Source: Pelagomonas calceolata
Taxonomy: Eukaryota; Sar; Pelagophyceae; Pelagomonadales; Pelagomonadaceae
Assembly (NCBI GenBank): GCA_918797485.1
Contig: CAKKNE010000004.1
Location: 2,418,001 to 2,482,000 of the forward strand
Length of the DNA: 64,000 nt
Reading direction: 5' to 3'
The notes beneath the pieces are model-generated. The model saw only the letters and a program-made list of their open reading frames with translations. It had not been told where the DNA came from and did no database searches. Below are positions 49,622 through 57,115 of the stretch, piece by piece (position 1 is the first letter of the stretch; every line of letters begins with the position of its first letter). Made by a program: the position numbers and the translations under genes.

Positions 49622-52600
49622 TCAGCTCTCCTTCTTCGGCTCCTTCTCGTCGGGCGGAGGAGCGGACGGCTCGTACGCGGCCTGGCCGGGGGAATACGCT
49701 CCCGTGGAGGGCGTCGAGTCCGCCCCGAAGCTGCTCGGCGAGGATGACGCTTGCCCGGCGCCGTCGAAGCTCGTAGGTGAGTACTGCGTAGGGGGGCGCA
49801 GGGTTAGGTTTCGGAGCGCCGCGCGCGAGACGTCTCCCGAACAACAACTCGTAGCGCCGAGCGTACTGTCGCGAAGCGATCGGCAAACGATCGGCGAAGG
49901 AAAGCCATGTAGCGACGCTGCCACACGCCGCAGGCGAAGAAGGGCTGTAGGCCGGGCTCCTGTGTGGCAACGAAACGGTGATCGCGCGGCAAAGCATTGT
50001 CGTAGGTCGTCCTGGCGCAAAACACGGCGGGCCTCGGTCGTCGGATCCGAGGTCGGCTCCGAGGACCGCTAGAGGCGGTTCCGACGATCAGCAGTGGCCT
50101 TGGCGCAATGGCCGCGGCCGCCGCCTCGGCCATCGCCTCGGCCACTGGTTCCTCAGGCCACTTCGTAGGTCGTCTGGATTCATTATAAGACACCGAAACA
50201 CGTGCGTCGGAGAGTACTGTGTAGAAACAAGATGGGTGAGCTGTGGAACCGATAAAGAGGCGTAACGTCCCTTTTCGGGCTCGAACGAAGTGCTAAGTCT
50301 CACAACGAAGTCGAAGTGCTGTGTAGGGCGCTGGAAACGCACTGCGGGACTCGATGGACTGTAGGCGGGACTCGTAGGCCTGCGTGGAGAACGAACAGTC
50401 AGGGACCCGATCCGAGGCTCTTGGTTGATTCACGACGCCGCGGCGCACGAGTAGGCCGGTGATGTAGGCCTGCGGAGAGAACGAAAGGTTAGCGACCCGA
50501 CCCGAGGCGCTCGATTGAGGACCCGAGGCGCTTGATTGAGTTAGGACGCCGCGACGCACGAGTACGCGGGACTCGTAGGACCTGCGCGGAAACCGAACAA
50601 TCAGGGAATCGGCCCGAGGATATTGGTTGATTCCAGACGCCAGTGCGGCACTGTACGCGGGTGACGTAGGCCTACGTAGAAAAGAAACGGTCAGCACGAA
50701 CGAACGATAAACGTGATGAGAATCGCGAGTCCGGACGCCGGGACGCACGAGTACGCCGGTGACGTAGGCCTGCGTAGAAAAAAAACGGTGAGGGACCCGA
50801 TTCGAGGCGCTTGATTGAGTTAGGACGCCGCGACGCACGAGTACGCGGGACTCGTAGGACCTGCGCGGAAACCGAACAATCAGGGAATCGGCCCGAGGAT
50901 ATTGGTTGATTCCAGACGCCAGTGCGGCACTGTACGCGGGTGACGTAGGCCTACGTAGAAAAGAAACGGTCAGCACGAACGAACGATAAACGTGATGAGA
51001 ATCGCGAGTCCGGACGCCGGGACGCACGAGTACGCCGGCGATGTAGGCCTGGGTGGAAAAGGAACGGTCAGCAAAGCAACCAGGCTCCGTCCGGACGCCG
51101 TGACGCCACGAGTACGCGGGGCTTGTAGGACCTGCGAGGGATACGAACAATCAGGGAATCGGCCCGAGGTTGTTGGTTGATTCCAGACGCCCGGACGGCA
51201 CTGTAAGCGGGTGATGTAGGCCTGCGAGGGATACGAACGGTGAGGGACCCGACCCGCGGCTCGCATGACAGTCAGCACGTACGAACGATAAACGTGACGA
51301 GAATCGCGGACGCCGGAACGCACGAATAGGCCGGACTCGCAACCCCCCCGCCGTACACCGGCGACGCCACGCCGCCATACGCCGGCGACGCCCCGTAGAT
51401 GGGCGACGCGCCGTGCACCGGCGACAAGACGGAAGAAATTCCACCAACAGTAGGAGAAAACGCCGCGTCGCCCCAGCCCGGCGTCGCGCCGCCGCGCGCG
51501 GGAGACGCCCCGTACAAGCCGGCCGGAGACGACGCGTAGGGCGTCATCGCCGGCGCCTGGCCAGGCACCGCGTCGGGCGACGCGTCGCCCCACTCCCTCA
51601 GGGAAGCGTTCTGCTGCTGGTCCGGGGCTTCCAATTCCACGGCGTGTTCCAATTGCGCGGAATCCAGCAATAAGTCAGAAACACCAGTGCCCACATGTGC
51701 GAGCTGCCCGAGCATGATATTCGGCGTGACGCCGTCGACGTCGTCTTTTCTCGCGAAGATCGCGCTTTTGAACAAGACCTCGACGGTCTCCTCGAAGGAA
51801 GCCGACAGGAGCGGCCCCGAGTCGCCCCGGTTGATGCCGTGCCTTGAAATGGCCATCAAGCTACCTCGAAAGCACATCGTATCACAGAGCACCGCCAAAT
51901 GCCGATAGTTCACGTAGGCGCCGTCGAACGAAATGACCTCCCTTAACATCTGCAGCAGGGCCTGCCGCGTGCCCTCGATGCCCATGACCTGTGTTGAAAG
52001 ATCGTTCGCGACGGTAGCTCGAGGCGCTCTCGCATCCAGGGGCGCCGCGTCGACGGCGTACCGGGTGTAGGTCGCGTCGGCGGCGTGGGCGCGGCCGCGG
52101 GCTCTGCCGTAGGCCCAGCCGTCGGCGCGGCCGTGGGCTGGCCCGGCGGCTCGGCCGTGGGCTCCGCAGTAAGCGCGGCCGCGGGCTCGACAGCCGCAGG
52201 GCGAAGCAGAAGAAACGACATGGGACGCCGCAAGACGCACGCTACAAATCTCCACGATGTCGTTCGAGACCGTTCTCGTACAGTCGACGTCGGGATCCGC
52301 TAGGACCGTAGCTAGGTTCGTGCCGTCCGTCTCCAGCACCCATTCTTCCCCGTTGCCCAGCGCGCCCGTGGACGCCCAGATATTTGTTTTTTGTTTTTTG
52401 ATGTAGACCTTCGTCACTCTCGGGATGCCTCTTAGTCTCAAATCAGCCAACATCGACTGCTCGACCCTTCTGAGCAGTTGCCACTCATCGTCGTCGTCCT
52501 CGTCCTGCGGCTGATCTCCACCAGTACGTATACGAACTCTCAGTACCAATTGGTCGGCGTTATCATCAGCGTAAATACAGTGCAAGTCCGCCCCATATTC

Positions 52601-55600
52601 GTCGGCCACCGTAGCGGCGACATCAGCCATCCTCAGTTTTTTGTCAGCGACCACTTCCCGATTCAACACAAACCGCAGCACCCAAGGAGACATAGCCTTC
52701 GCATCAAAATCTTCGTCGGGCACCTCGCAGTAGGCTTGCACGAACTCGCGGTCCTCAGATACCACAGAGTCAGTAGCGTCGGGGTCGTACACGATCTGCG
52801 TCTTCACGGTCACGTCGCCGAGCGTCGTATGTTCGAGTTTGGCCTGGACGCCTCGCGCCTTCGCCTCGTCCTCCTTGCAGTGGTCCGCGAGATAAATTGT
52901 GAGCGATGGAGTTCGGACCGTTTTCGCGACGTTGAGGATCTCATTGAGTCGAGGCACACCGAGCGTGACGTTCTTCGCACTCACTCCGGCAAAGTGGAAG
53001 GTGTTGAGCGTCATCTGCGTGGCGGGCTCGCCCATGGACTGGGCCGCGAGCACGCCGCACATCTCGCCGGCGTGCGCGCGCGCCTGGACGAAGCGCGCCT
53101 CGACCTCTCCCACCAACCTGCGTTGACAACGGGTCGGCGGTTGTCGCGTCGATGGCGTATTGTGGAGTCTAGGCCGGGCCGCGGGCTTCGCTGTGGGCTC
53201 GGCCATTGGCTCGGCCGTAGGCTCGGCCCTGCGCTAGGCAAGGCCCGGCCCAGGCACACAGGTCCCGGCGGAGGTACGGGCCGGCGATGTGTGTGTAGAA
53301 TCGTCCCTCGTGCGGAGGCGACGGCCGGAGGCCAGGCGCGCCGCGGCGCCGCGCTCGGGACGCGCCAAGGCCGGGCTCACAGGGACAACATCGCGTCGAC
53401 GGCGCGGCGGCCGCGTGATCATATGACGCCATCGAGCCGACACGACGCCGCAAAGAAGTAAAAAGCAAAGGACGCCGCAAACAGCACCAGTCGAAGGCCG
53501 CCCGGTTCAGCCGGTGCTCGAACACCACCTTCCGAGCCGCCAGCGTGGACCTAACTAGAATCACAAATAATTGAGTAGCGTCGTCGGCCTCGGCGGCCGC
53601 CGCTGCGGTAGCTTCGGGCGATTGCTCATTCGATTCGCCGACGTCCCGTCGGCAAGTCCTGATGCGGACACACAAGCGCGTGACGCCCTCTAGAACCACG
53701 CGAGGATCTAGGACGGCCGTATCCAACCGCTCGCCGCACTCGAACTGCTTTTGGGCTGCCCACACTAACCGTTCCAAGTTCACAGGTAGCTGCGCAAAAG
53801 GATCCGCGTCGCGGTCCGGCTCGCGGCAAGCGAAGATCGCCCGCAACGCATCGCGATCGCCCTTCAACCTGTCTAACTCCGCCTCGAGCAACGTCTCGAG
53901 GTCCGGATCGGCCCGGCAAGCGGCCGCAACGTCCACATCTAGAGGAACGCCTTGCGTCACGGGACCCTGCTTGTCTCTCCCCTCCGCAAGGTTGATGGAG
54001 TAGGCCTTTCTCAGTTGATCATCCCCCAACAAAAGAGAGGGAAACTTTTGCTTCTCGACCCAGGCGCCGTCGCCGCCGTCCTCGCCGTACAGAAACTGCA
54101 CGACGTGGCCTTGGTTCGTTCGGACCGTGCCATCGTACTGGACAGCTGTCGACTCCATGGACTTGACCAATCTACGTTGTAAGTAACCGGTCTGGGCCGT
54201 TTTACAGGCCGTATCGATGAGACCCTCCCGACCGCCCATGGCATGGAAGAAGAACTCCTGCGGGCTGAGACCTCTCAGATACGAGTTCTCCACAAACCCT
54301 CTCGATTCGGGCCCCAGATCATCTTTCGCGAAATGAGGTAGGGTCCTTCTCCGGAAGCCGTAGGGTATTCTCTTACCCTCGACGTTCTGTTGGCCCACAC
54401 ACGCAATAATCTGACTGATGTTGATGTCGTTACCTTTGGACCCGGCCATGGCCATGGATTTCACGTTATTTGCCTCACTGATACTATCCTGGACAGATAA
54501 ACCCGCAGACGTCCGCGCCGCGTTCAGCACGCGGTTCACCATCGCTTCAAAGGACTCGATCATCGTCCGCCCGGGCTGGCACTCGAGTTCTCCTCTCTGC
54601 CCTCGTTGTACCAGTTGTTTGACCTTGTCCTTGGCCTCATCAATGATCGACTCAATATTTCGCATCGTCGACTGGTCCGCGACCGCATCCCCAATGCCGA
54701 TACTGAATGATACCGTCACCAACCAATTGTTCGTTAATGTCTGCACGCGATTAATCAAGTACATGGTCGCTTCCGAACCTTTTTCCAACCAGGTCACATG
54801 AATCAAACTTCCACCACTTGTCCCAAGGATCTTCTTGTCCATGACGCCCGTCAGCAGCTTGCCCTGATGAATGAGTACGGTCCCGTCGGACCAGTTCAGC
54901 GTGTCGGCGCCCTTCTTCGGGAACCGGTTGCCCTTGCCCTTGAAGTTTAGTTTGGGTATGATGAGGGAAAAGACCTGTTTCCCGGTCCACAACGGCTTCG
55001 GTTTGAGGATGGCCGGCGGCGGGATCACGCCGTCCCAGTCGTCGCCGACCCACATCAGTAAATTGAAGAGTAAATCCTGTTCGATGAACGTGTCTCGGGA
55101 CGTCATTCTCGCAGAGGCTAGTAGCGAATCTTGCACGATGCCCATGACCGGTTTATTGGATTGGGGCGACACGATATTCCTCGGCACCATCATGATCTGC
55201 TCGAGTTCCGCTTTCGCGGCGACCGACTGCGGGACGTGCCTGTGTTGGAAACAAAGGGTCGATGGCGTCCACGGCGATGGCGTGCCCGCGGCGTCGGAGT
55301 CTCGTGGCGCCCCTACGCCGTCGCCGCGACGCATGAAAAGTACAACAGACGCCGCTACGCACAAGTTCATCTCGTCGCCGTCGAAGTCGGCGTTGTACGG
55401 CGACGTGACGGAGAGGTTCAGTCGGAACGTCGAGTGGTCCAGCACCTTGACGCGGTGCGCCATGATCGACATCTTGTGGAGCGACGGCTGGCGGTTGAAC
55501 ACGATGAGGTCGTCGTCGCGCAGATGCCTTTCGACGACGAACCCCGTGTGTAACGCCAGATCATTCAAATGCTTCACGAAGCGGAGGTCTACGCGTCGCC

Positions 55601-57115
55601 CGTCGGCGTGGACGACGTAGCGCGCCCCCGGCCAGACCTCCGGGCCATTTCTTACGAGAGCTGAGAGTTCGTGGACGTTGTACGGCGCTACTCTTTCAGG
55701 CACCGTTAAGGTCTTCGCTATGGACCGAGGAACGCCGACCTGGTCCACACTTAGGTTCGGATCGGCCGTGATCACGGTTCTCGCCGAGAAGTCGACGCGC
55801 TTCCCCATCAAATTACCTCTTATACGACCTTCTTTACCTTTGAGCCGTTGTCTAATAGTCTTCAACGGTTTCCCGCCGCGCTGCTTTTCTTGCACTCCAT
55901 CTTTAGCGTTGGCCTCGTTGTCGAACAACGCGTTGACCTTGTACTGGAGCAATTCCTCGAACTGGGACACGATGTGGGGCGCCTCGCCCGCGCGACACAA
56001 TTGCTCCAAAGTTCTATTGGCTTTCACGATGTTCACGAGCTGGTGCGTCAGGTCGTCTTCGGACCGCTGGTTCGAGTCGCCGAGTTGTACACTGGGACGG
56101 ACGTGGGGCGGCGGCACCGGTAATACCGTGAGTAGGAGCCACTCGGGCCGCGCGTGTCGCGGGTCCAGGCCTAGCAGTCTCGCGTCGCGGTCGGACACGT
56201 TCCGCAGCACCTCGTGCGCCTTGTGCGCGCTCAGGATCTGCTTGCGGTCGCCGGAGCCTGCGTTGTTTCGAGGGTGAGCGTCTCGCGTCGACGGCGGTTC
56301 CCTCTCGCGACGCCAGCGACGCGCTGTCGACGCGTGCTCTCGACGCACGGCGCGCCGGCGGCGTCTCTGTGCGGCTCCAGCGCTCGACGCCATCGACGCG
56401 CAGGCGGCGCCGCGCCGATGGCGTCCACCACGAGAAGCCGTCGACGCGACGATGGCGTCGCGACGCGTGGCGCTCGCGCGAGGGACGCGACGCCGTCCAC
56501 CGGAAGGTCACAACCAGGACGCCGCCACAAACCGGGCACGTGCTCATCATCAGCTGAAAACTCGACCTCGATGCTCTGCGCGTTCCTTTTCCGGAACTGG
56601 GGCTGCAACGCGCCGCAGCCGTAGGACGCCTGCTCCGGGTCGCCGCCTTCTAAGATAGCGGCGTCCAACTCCTCCTTCGTCGCGAACTCGCAGCGCTTCT
56701 GCGTCCGACACAGCGCGTGCATAGCTTCTAACCTTCGCTGAGATTTCAACTTCTGCGCCGCCTGGACTCGATAATCGCTGGGATCGGCCATCAGTCTAGA
56801 ACAATGAAAACAGACGCACCGCAGGACCATCAAGGTCTCTTTCAGGTAACCGAGGTGGTAGCACGGCCTCGCTAATTCTATATGGCCGAAGTGCCCGGGG
56901 TCCTCCTTGTCATCTAGCGACCCCATTCTAGGATCATTCACGCCGCCGTAAACGCCCTTGCCGTCCAAGTACGTCTCATACTTTGAAATTCCCGCGTCGA
57001 CGGCGCGTTCGCGCGCGTTCGTTTTTTGGGTCACGGACATGTTCCGGATCTCATCGGGCCCCAGGATCCCGAACTGGACCCTTTTAATGGCGTGCGTGCG
57101 GCCCGTGAAGACCAT
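49622..57115 (-). CDS. RPB1: RNA polymerase II largest subunit, about 18 exons with a microexon-encoded CTD
   Basis: Exons 57115-56540, 56237-55363, 55239-53488, 53117-52241 and 51988-51324, twelve short CTD exons, and 49783-49622 join in frame to 1724 residues, a normal RPB1 length. Landmarks are NDPRMGSLDD, PGHFGHIELARP, LRCVCFHCSRL, RPEWLLLTVLPVPPPHVRPS, GKRVDFSARTVITADPNL, the active-site NADFDGDEMN, NRAAFDW|LVGEVEARF, QSMGEPATQMTLNTFHFAGV and VNYRHLAVLCDTMCFRG. The subunit forms the catalytic cleft that synthesises mRNA. The CTD starts with degenerate GGxASPxY repeats, then runs of YSPTSPA from microexons, and ends YSPTSFDGAG...PPPDEKEPKKES. The N-terminal zinc site seems to lack its usual CxxC. 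The last two introns are GC-AG. The exon 1/2 junction is the least certain. Confidence 0.93.
49784..51323 (-). repeat. RPB1: CTD microexon array of RPB1
   Basis: Exons (minus strand): 51221-51202, 51131-51110, 51048-51028, 50950-50931, 50860-50839, 50769-50749, 50671-50652, 50581-50560, 50469-50449, then 50379-50343, 50216-50206 and 49959-49929. The first nine are 20, 22 or 21 nt and each encodes one heptad. Type A starts CAG|G CCT and ends TAC A|GTGCC. Type B starts CAG|GT CCT and ends TAC TC|GTGCG. Type C starts CAG|G CCT and ends TC|GTGCG. Phases alternate so that every junction restores Ser. The repeat period is 279 bp (C-A-B triplet), nearly identical between 50560-50838 and 50839-51117. 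Introns between the nine microexons are 61-90 nt, and the first of the array is 102 nt. Confidence 0.88.
52085..52200 (-). repeat. GC-rich minisatellite inside RPB1 intron 4
   Basis: Within the intron 52240-51989, degenerate 8-12-bp units of the form GGCCGTGGGCTCGGC are strung together. A related string occurs in intron 3 (53118-53487) at about 53170-53235. They are non-coding after splicing and probably arose by slippage. Confidence 0.6.
55240..55362 (-). mobile_element. Probable decayed introner forming RPB1 intron 2
   Basis: The 123-nt intron TT|GTGCGTAG...CAACACAG|GCACGTCC ends with TTTGTTTCCAACACAG, close to the introner end TTTGATTTCCACACAG. It contains CACGCCATCGCCGTGGACGC, close to the introner core. 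Splicing gives MNL|HVPQSVAAK at the conserved active-site region. The left end is not recognisable. Confidence 0.55.
56238..56539 (-). mobile_element. RPB1 intron 1 with introner-like core
   Basis: The 302-nt intron (donor CAC|GTGCCC, acceptor AAGCAG|ATCC, phase 0) contains GACGCCATCGGCGCG and GCGTCGATGGCGTCG, the two arms of the introner core palindrome. The inverted ends are not recognisable. Exact splice sites are my best fit to the RPB1 family. Confidence 0.4.

Follow-up and report, generated by a model that had tools for sequence, protein, structure and literature searches.

In the general view, the heptad tail (CTD) at the C terminus of RPB1 assists in recruiting the splicing machinery, and slippage in coding DNA is usually seen as the way in which the number of its heptads drifts. 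Yeast has 26 heptads and mammals have 52, according to an excerpt of a published account (PMC6548728). In the micro-exon genes (MEGs) of Schistosoma, the exons are mostly multiples of three in length and the introns measure from 100 to almost 5000 bp, and the same excerpt cites a paper on S. mansoni exons that recur in tandem and encode repeats of 81 bases (PMC10526429); MEG proteins are described as secreted. For human UBC, another paper states that the number of repeats varies by splicing and that AGGT sites serve both splice roles (PMC10809524). The genome of Pelagomonas calceolata has 0.45 introns per gene on average, according to an excerpt of its genome paper (PMC9481584), compared with 17 in our model of its RPB1 gene. 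We describe here this gene, in which the tail is cut mostly into single heptads by predicted introns.

The window, i.e., the whole stretch of 64,000 nucleotides that was analyzed, carries the gene on its minus strand (Table 1). A Pfam search with the gene model detected the CTD repeat PF05001 in addition to seven Rpb1 domains, as in an RPB1 with a heptad CTD. When the 583-residue stretch encoded by body exon 3 was compared with PDB sequences, Pol II RPB1 chains gave the best matches, with E values down to 2.9e-160, and RPC1 (5e-89) and RPA1 (4e-55) ranked well below. A scan of genome contigs with the same exon gave 36 pattern matches, 16 of which encode a relative, all from archaea according to their titles. 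The 17 introns of the model comprise 4 in the body, whose edges were set by inspection, guided by conserved RPB1 sequence, and 13 predicted ones in the CTD. Our model has 1733 codons, and the total of 1724 codons given by the first-pass annotation was not reproduced; since the CTD is parsed in the same way in both models, the difference should come from the body introns. In the genome (8 contigs, 32,445,274 bases), PF04997 was matched at four loci, the one in the window lying on contig C4. The nearest solved chains of the other three were RPC1 (contig C3), RPA1 (C6) and a plastid-type gamma subunit (C7). Therefore, of these four loci, only the RPB1 described here encodes a largest subunit of the Pol II type, and no second one was found among the PF04997 loci of the genome. 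The interior of body intron 4 (51989-52240) had 30 partial matches elsewhere in the genome at 72-85% identity, several of them grouped on contig C1 at 1225575-1226245, and thus holds a dispersed repeat.

Table 1. Features of the RPB1 locus (positions in the window) and WD40-like arrays in the same genome (positions in the stretches L042 to L045). "Both" stands for the joined heptad reading plus the search without preset exons.
Feature	Position	Strand	Basis or remark
RPB1 gene	49622..57115	-	ATG at 57115, TGA ends at 49622; 1733 codons (model)
Last body exon	51324..51988	-	Body end, linker, first Tyr-Ser of heptad 1 (TAT TC)
Exon A1, 20 nt	51202..51221	-	Both
Exon B1, 22 nt	51110..51131	-	Both
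Exon C1, 21 nt, frame-neutral	51028..51048	-	Both
Exon A2, 20 nt	50931..50950	-	Both
Exon B2, 22 nt	50839..50860	-	Both
Exon C2, 21 nt, frame-neutral	50749..50769	-	Both
Exon A3, 20 nt	50652..50671	-	Both
Exon B3, 22 nt	50560..50581	-	Both
Exon C3, 21 nt, frame-neutral	50449..50469	-	Both
Exon 10, 37 nt, PTSPA YSPSSPA	50343..50379	-	Both
Exon 11, 11 nt, then GC donor	50206..50216	-	Both
Exon 12, 31 nt, then GC donor	49929..49959	-	Both
Last exon	49622..49783	-	YSPTSFDGAG, C-terminal tip EPKKES, stop
Predicted introns 1-10, 61-102 nt	50380..51323	-	Both ends alignable among them; all in Ser2 codon
Predicted introns 11-13 region (126, 246, 145 nt)	49784..50342	-	At heptad boundaries or in Thr4
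Predicted intron 11, 126 nt	50217-50342	-	Stop-free, in frame
Predicted intron 12, 246 nt, GC donor	49960-50205	-	Matches only itself in genome
Predicted intron 13, 145 nt, GC donor	49784-49928	-	GC donor
Tandem array of 279-bp unit (three heptads, three introns)	50524..51223	-	TRF: 2.5 copies, 90% matches
WD40-like repeat arrays	L042 2692-3927 and 6437-7640 (contig C3)		Intron-motif clusters
WD40-like repeat array	L043 1777-2815		Intron-motif cluster
WD40-like repeat array	L044 2892-4066		Intron-motif cluster
WD40-like repeat array	L045 2281-3493		Intron-motif cluster

The CTD array extends from a first donor at 51323 to a last acceptor at 49784. Once joined, its exons read 13 YSP[TS]SPA heptads followed by a degenerate YSPTSFDGAG, and 11 of the 13 heptads are cut internally by an intron, with introns 1 to 10 lying in the Ser2 codon of heptads 1 to 10. 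The lengths of the nine small exons are, in order, 20, 22, 21, 20, 22, 21, 20, 22 and 21 nt. The introns in the Ser2 codon interrupt it as TC/G or A/GT, and every donor is paired with an acceptor of the right phase. We also parsed the minus strand from 49700 to 51400 by a dynamic-programming search in which strict heptad residues (YSP[TS]SP[AS]) were imposed and the exons were not preset; introns of 50-300 nt with GT or GC donors and AG acceptors were allowed, and exons between introns had to be at least 10 nt long. The results showed the identical 13 introns and 99 consecutive heptad residues, compared with 4.5 heptad residues on average, and never more than 7, when the same search was run on 100 dinucleotide shuffles. 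The nine exons of 20-22 nt and the three other short ones (37, 11 and 31 nt) proposed by the first-pass annotation were therefore recovered by a search that did not preset them, and the joined reading confirmed the AG and GT/GC bounds, the alternating phases and the unbroken run of YSPTSPA and YSPSSPA up to YSPTSFDGAG that it had claimed. The pattern CCNWSNWSNCCNGCNTAYNNGTG had six matches in the genome, all within the CTD array, and the reversed control had none. At the level of the sequence, the observation of single-heptad exons in the RPB1 tail is confirmed.

Four lines of support suggest that the 13 predicted introns would be removed from the RNA: the phase agreement of donors and acceptors described above, the branch-site-like signals, the kind of changes seen in the exons, and the need for a heptad tail. 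The intron ends are those of U2-type introns, with AG at all 13 acceptors, GT at the donors of introns 1 to 11 and GC at those of introns 12 and 13. The motif CTNAY corresponds to the U2-type branch consensus. It was present with its A located 20-21 nt from the intron end in 12 of the 13 introns (10 of 11 when identical introns are counted once), whereas 5000 shuffling runs gave 0.20 on average and never more than 3; because the CTD introns are related by descent, these 12 matches are not independent. Each of introns 1 to 10 carries the motif, with its A in 20th position counted from the intron end. Two points speak against removal: none of the four RPB1 body introns passed the same branch test, and introns 12 and 13 depend on GC donors. 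The nine small exons, in which each of the lengths 20, 22 and 21 nt occurs three times, vary at seven sites, and every one of these is a third codon position. Using an exact pattern, we found no uninterrupted coding from a YSPxSPA heptad to a further heptad in the 32.4-Mb genome, so a heptad tail would have to arise by splicing at this locus. A scan of viral contigs for uninterrupted heptads found none either. The comparison of exons and introns between the three units of the array was less uniform: units 1 and 2 differ about equally in exons (6 of 63 sites) and introns (21 of 203), and exon divergence is below intron divergence only in the two other pairs (2/63 and 26/205 for units 2 and 3; 6/63 and 41/196 for units 1 and 3). 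Intron 11 is the sole one of the 13 that is both stop-free and in frame. Its retention would insert 42 residues in the tail without a frameshift, and it could be retained or coding. In the mechanism that we propose, the short introns would be spliced out constitutively, one by one through intron definition, and the main product would be a single tail with 13 heptads and the degenerate one.

Near-identical tandem repeats are places where assemblies err, and the CTD locus is a site of this kind. The region could be decayed or mis-assembled, with the working CTD located elsewhere. We consider this scarcely credible, because the heptad frame is unbroken over 13 junctions, the changes in the exons concern third positions only, and the genome contains neither uninterrupted heptad coding of the form tested nor a second Pol II-type subunit among the four loci. 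Moreover, the assembly was based on long reads and polished with long and short reads, according to an excerpt of the genome paper (PMC9481584). An intact CTD elsewhere in the genome was rejected as a candidate, none being found with the exact pattern running from YSPxSPA to a heptad.

To describe how the array is built, we cut it into its repeated units. The 279-bp unit consists of 63 coding nt (exons A, B and C, 20+22+21) and 216 intron nt, and the three units as cut measure 271, 279 and 292 nt. Exons and introns are repeated jointly, as in tandem exon-intron duplication, and 236 nt are identical at an offset of 279 (first copy 51038-50803), an identity that points to a recent event or to homogenization. 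Introns 4/7, 10 and 12 and the 700-bp array were then used as queries in a genome search that skips very common words, and all introns other than 1, 11 and 13 were thereby covered, as queries of their own or by lying within or mostly within the queried array. The 77-nt sequence shared by the identical introns 4 and 7 gave three matches, all in the array (introns 4 and 7, and intron 1 at 84%). Introns 10 and 12 each matched itself alone, and the 700-bp array matched the CTD locus alone. Because exons and introns repeat jointly and the searched introns are found only locally, local tandem duplication best explains introns 1 to 10. The idea that heptads come as exon-intron units, already put forward in the first-pass annotation, is thus upheld by the 279-bp tandem block and by introns that, where searched, match only the CTD locus. 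Introns 11 to 13 differ in place and length and likely have an origin separate from that of introns 1 to 10.

Two other origins of the introns were considered. Each heptad could have received its own insertion of a mobile intron, or introner. Such elements have been described in Aureococcus (PMC9860276, in excerpt), and the Pelagomonas genome paper, also in excerpt, reports that intron lengths peak at ~210 bp, which it describes as typical of Introner Elements (PMC9481584). The 5' motif GTGCGTNGCGGCGTC had 64 matches in the genome versus 3 for the reversed pattern, and by coordinates two of the matches are CTD introns 6 and 9, and another is the second body intron of RPB1; the GTGCGTT form accounts for 39 of the 64 matches, and most of these 39 are clustered. 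However, introns 4/7, 10 and 12 have no match outside the locus, introns and exons repeat together in 279-bp blocks, and introns 1 to 10 share one codon of the repeat. Many similar dispersed copies, which would mark an introner, were not found, and what is shared elsewhere is a short 5' motif only. Independent introner insertion is therefore disfavored, with the searched introns (4/7, 10 and 12) unmatched outside the CTD locus, and we regard it as highly improbable. The seed intron itself may have descended from an introner-like element. The second origin is the birth of introns from the repeats by expansion of AGGT-bearing units, following the dual-specific splice-site model published for tandem-repeat genes (PMC10809524, in excerpt). 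AGGT is indeed present at the acceptors of the three B exons, but these are only 3 of the 12 internal exons, and none of introns 1 to 10 is a multiple of the 21-nt unit. Intron 11, with its 126 nt, is a multiple of 21 nt, yet when retained it reads without heptads. Such an origin appears very unlikely to us.

We therefore return to local tandem duplication. According to this mechanism, one intron in the Ser2 codon of one heptad would have been copied along with its heptad, and the most recent growth step would have involved 279-bp blocks, each with three heptads and their three introns. CTD length would then shift mainly in DNA through unequal exchange of blocks. Since a block corresponds to exactly three heptads and has the same phase at both ends, the gain or loss of whole blocks keeps the frame, and the CTD length is likely tuned in DNA in this way. 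We give a probability of roughly 80% to this reading as a whole, namely, that a tail cut mostly to single heptads by 13 predicted introns grew by local tandem duplication of a heptad with its Ser2-codon intron, latest as 279-bp blocks, that it is spliced constitutively, and that its length changes mainly in DNA.

Repeats of a coding unit with its intron were also found elsewhere in this genome. Four stretches (L042 to L045) include five clusters of GTGCGTNGCGGCGTC matches, and all four contain tandem repeats with periods of 175-176 bp. Their coding repeats of about 126 nt each have an intron of 49-52 nt opening with GTGCGTTGCGGCGTCC. After removal of the 49-52-nt introns by pattern, WD40-like repeats were clean in one L042 gene and partial in L043 and L044; in L045, there was no WD40-like reading and the frame breaks. 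The coding sequence between neighboring pattern introns is 120-141 nt long, once 180 nt, and each is a multiple of three. Larger gaps of 302-490 nt were judged to contain introns missed by the pattern, and a gap of 2607 nt separates the two L042 arrays. We call the repeats WD40-like from a reading of their translations, and in L042 an apparent protein kinase domain is read before them. Near-parallel arrays of the same intron motif occur on contig C1 (about 264358-265482) and contig C5 (about 264270-265395). Contigs 1 and 5 have >99% duplicated ends according to an excerpt of the genome paper (PMC9481584), and the two arrays near 264,000 probably fall within these ends. The WD40-like arrays resemble the RPB1 tail in that a coding repeat and a short intron are repeated in tandem, and they differ from it in their longer coding part (mostly 120-141 nt, a multiple of three) and their introns of 49-52 nt. 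This genome thus has a tendency to repeat protein units along with their introns, and the Pol II tail, with mostly one heptad per exon, is an extreme case.

The first-pass annotation had also suggested that heptad exons are skipped or included so as to vary CTD length and that, with Pol II driving splicing through its CTD, a feedback loop is formed. Some skips would indeed keep the reading frame. Among the 12 internal exons, 3 can be dropped singly, namely, exons 3, 6 and 9, those of 21 nt; among contiguous skips, 32 of 78 keep the frame for all twelve internal exons and 24 of 45 for the nine small ones. Exons 11 and 12 (42 nt together, each before a GC donor) can be dropped as a frame-neutral pair. 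GC donors are generally weaker, and these two exons are the best candidates for a regulated splice choice. On the other hand, 9 of the 12 single skips and 46 of the 78 contiguous ones shift the frame, and tuning of CTD length by alternative splicing is therefore not supported. An erroneous skip of a 20- or 22-nt exon would be selected against, we infer, because the frame shifts. The frame is likewise lost when all 12 internal exons, 268 nt in total, are dropped, so an isoform spliced directly from 51324 to 49783 would lack the normal C terminus. The UBC gene offers a precedent for a repeat number that varies by splicing, but the excerpt of that work states that its authors sought feedback and tissue-specific regulation and reports none (PMC10809524). 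Taken together, length variation by exon skipping with a feedback loop is unlikely.

A further version of this idea is that Pol II gauges its own splicing capacity. The full tail would be made only when a dozen phase-locked short exons are spliced accurately, misjoined messages would lose the frame, and the skips permitted by phase (one, two or three heptads; exons 11 and 12) would determine the length of the CTD, so that transcription coupled to splicing would receive a graded feedback. We hold this to be quite unlikely. As for the preferred reading, the gain of heptads by tandem duplication is well supported.

If the predicted introns are spliced, splicing would be required to make the very Pol II tail that is believed to assist it. 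A heptad is an exon here, and the number of heptads likely changes by whole exon-intron blocks. With nine consecutive exons of 20-22 nt and introns of 61-102 nt between them, there is not much space for exon definition, which makes the locus a stringent test of microexon splicing. It also provides a natural system to test how CTD length evolves and whether the output of Pol II is tied to the splicing of its own transcript.

Fibrillar collagen genes share with this locus an exon length that tracks the protein repeat, their 54-bp exons encoding Gly-X-Y repeats; they differ in that each exon holds several repeats and is frame-neutral. The first-pass annotation had stated that it knew of no described case. 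This holds for an RPB1 tail in single-heptad exons, none of which was among the matches listed from the open-licence literature, subscription journals being mostly outside it, and no stramenopile or Aureococcus CTDs were found in the open-licence literature. It does not hold for the elements taken separately, as the short-exon MEGs and repeat splicing in UBC have already been published. Compared with the canonical Pol II CTD, the tail is alike in its YSPTSPx heptads at the RPB1 C terminus (PF05001), but it has 13 of them, with Ala at position 7. Like MEGs, the gene has runs of very short exons between introns; unlike them, it has CTD introns of 61-246 nt, and for 9 of its 12 internal exons the length is not divisible by three. 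The exon symmetry of schistosome MEGs is accordingly absent, with multiples of three in only 3 of the 12 internal exons. Human UBC is likewise a tandem-repeat protein, with a number of units that differs between its RNAs (PMC10809524, in excerpt), but in UBC it is the coding repeat that acts as the optional intron, whereas RPB1 has separate predicted introns between the repeats. What is new here is that tandem exon-intron duplication, already known, is found at its single-heptad limit in Pol II itself.
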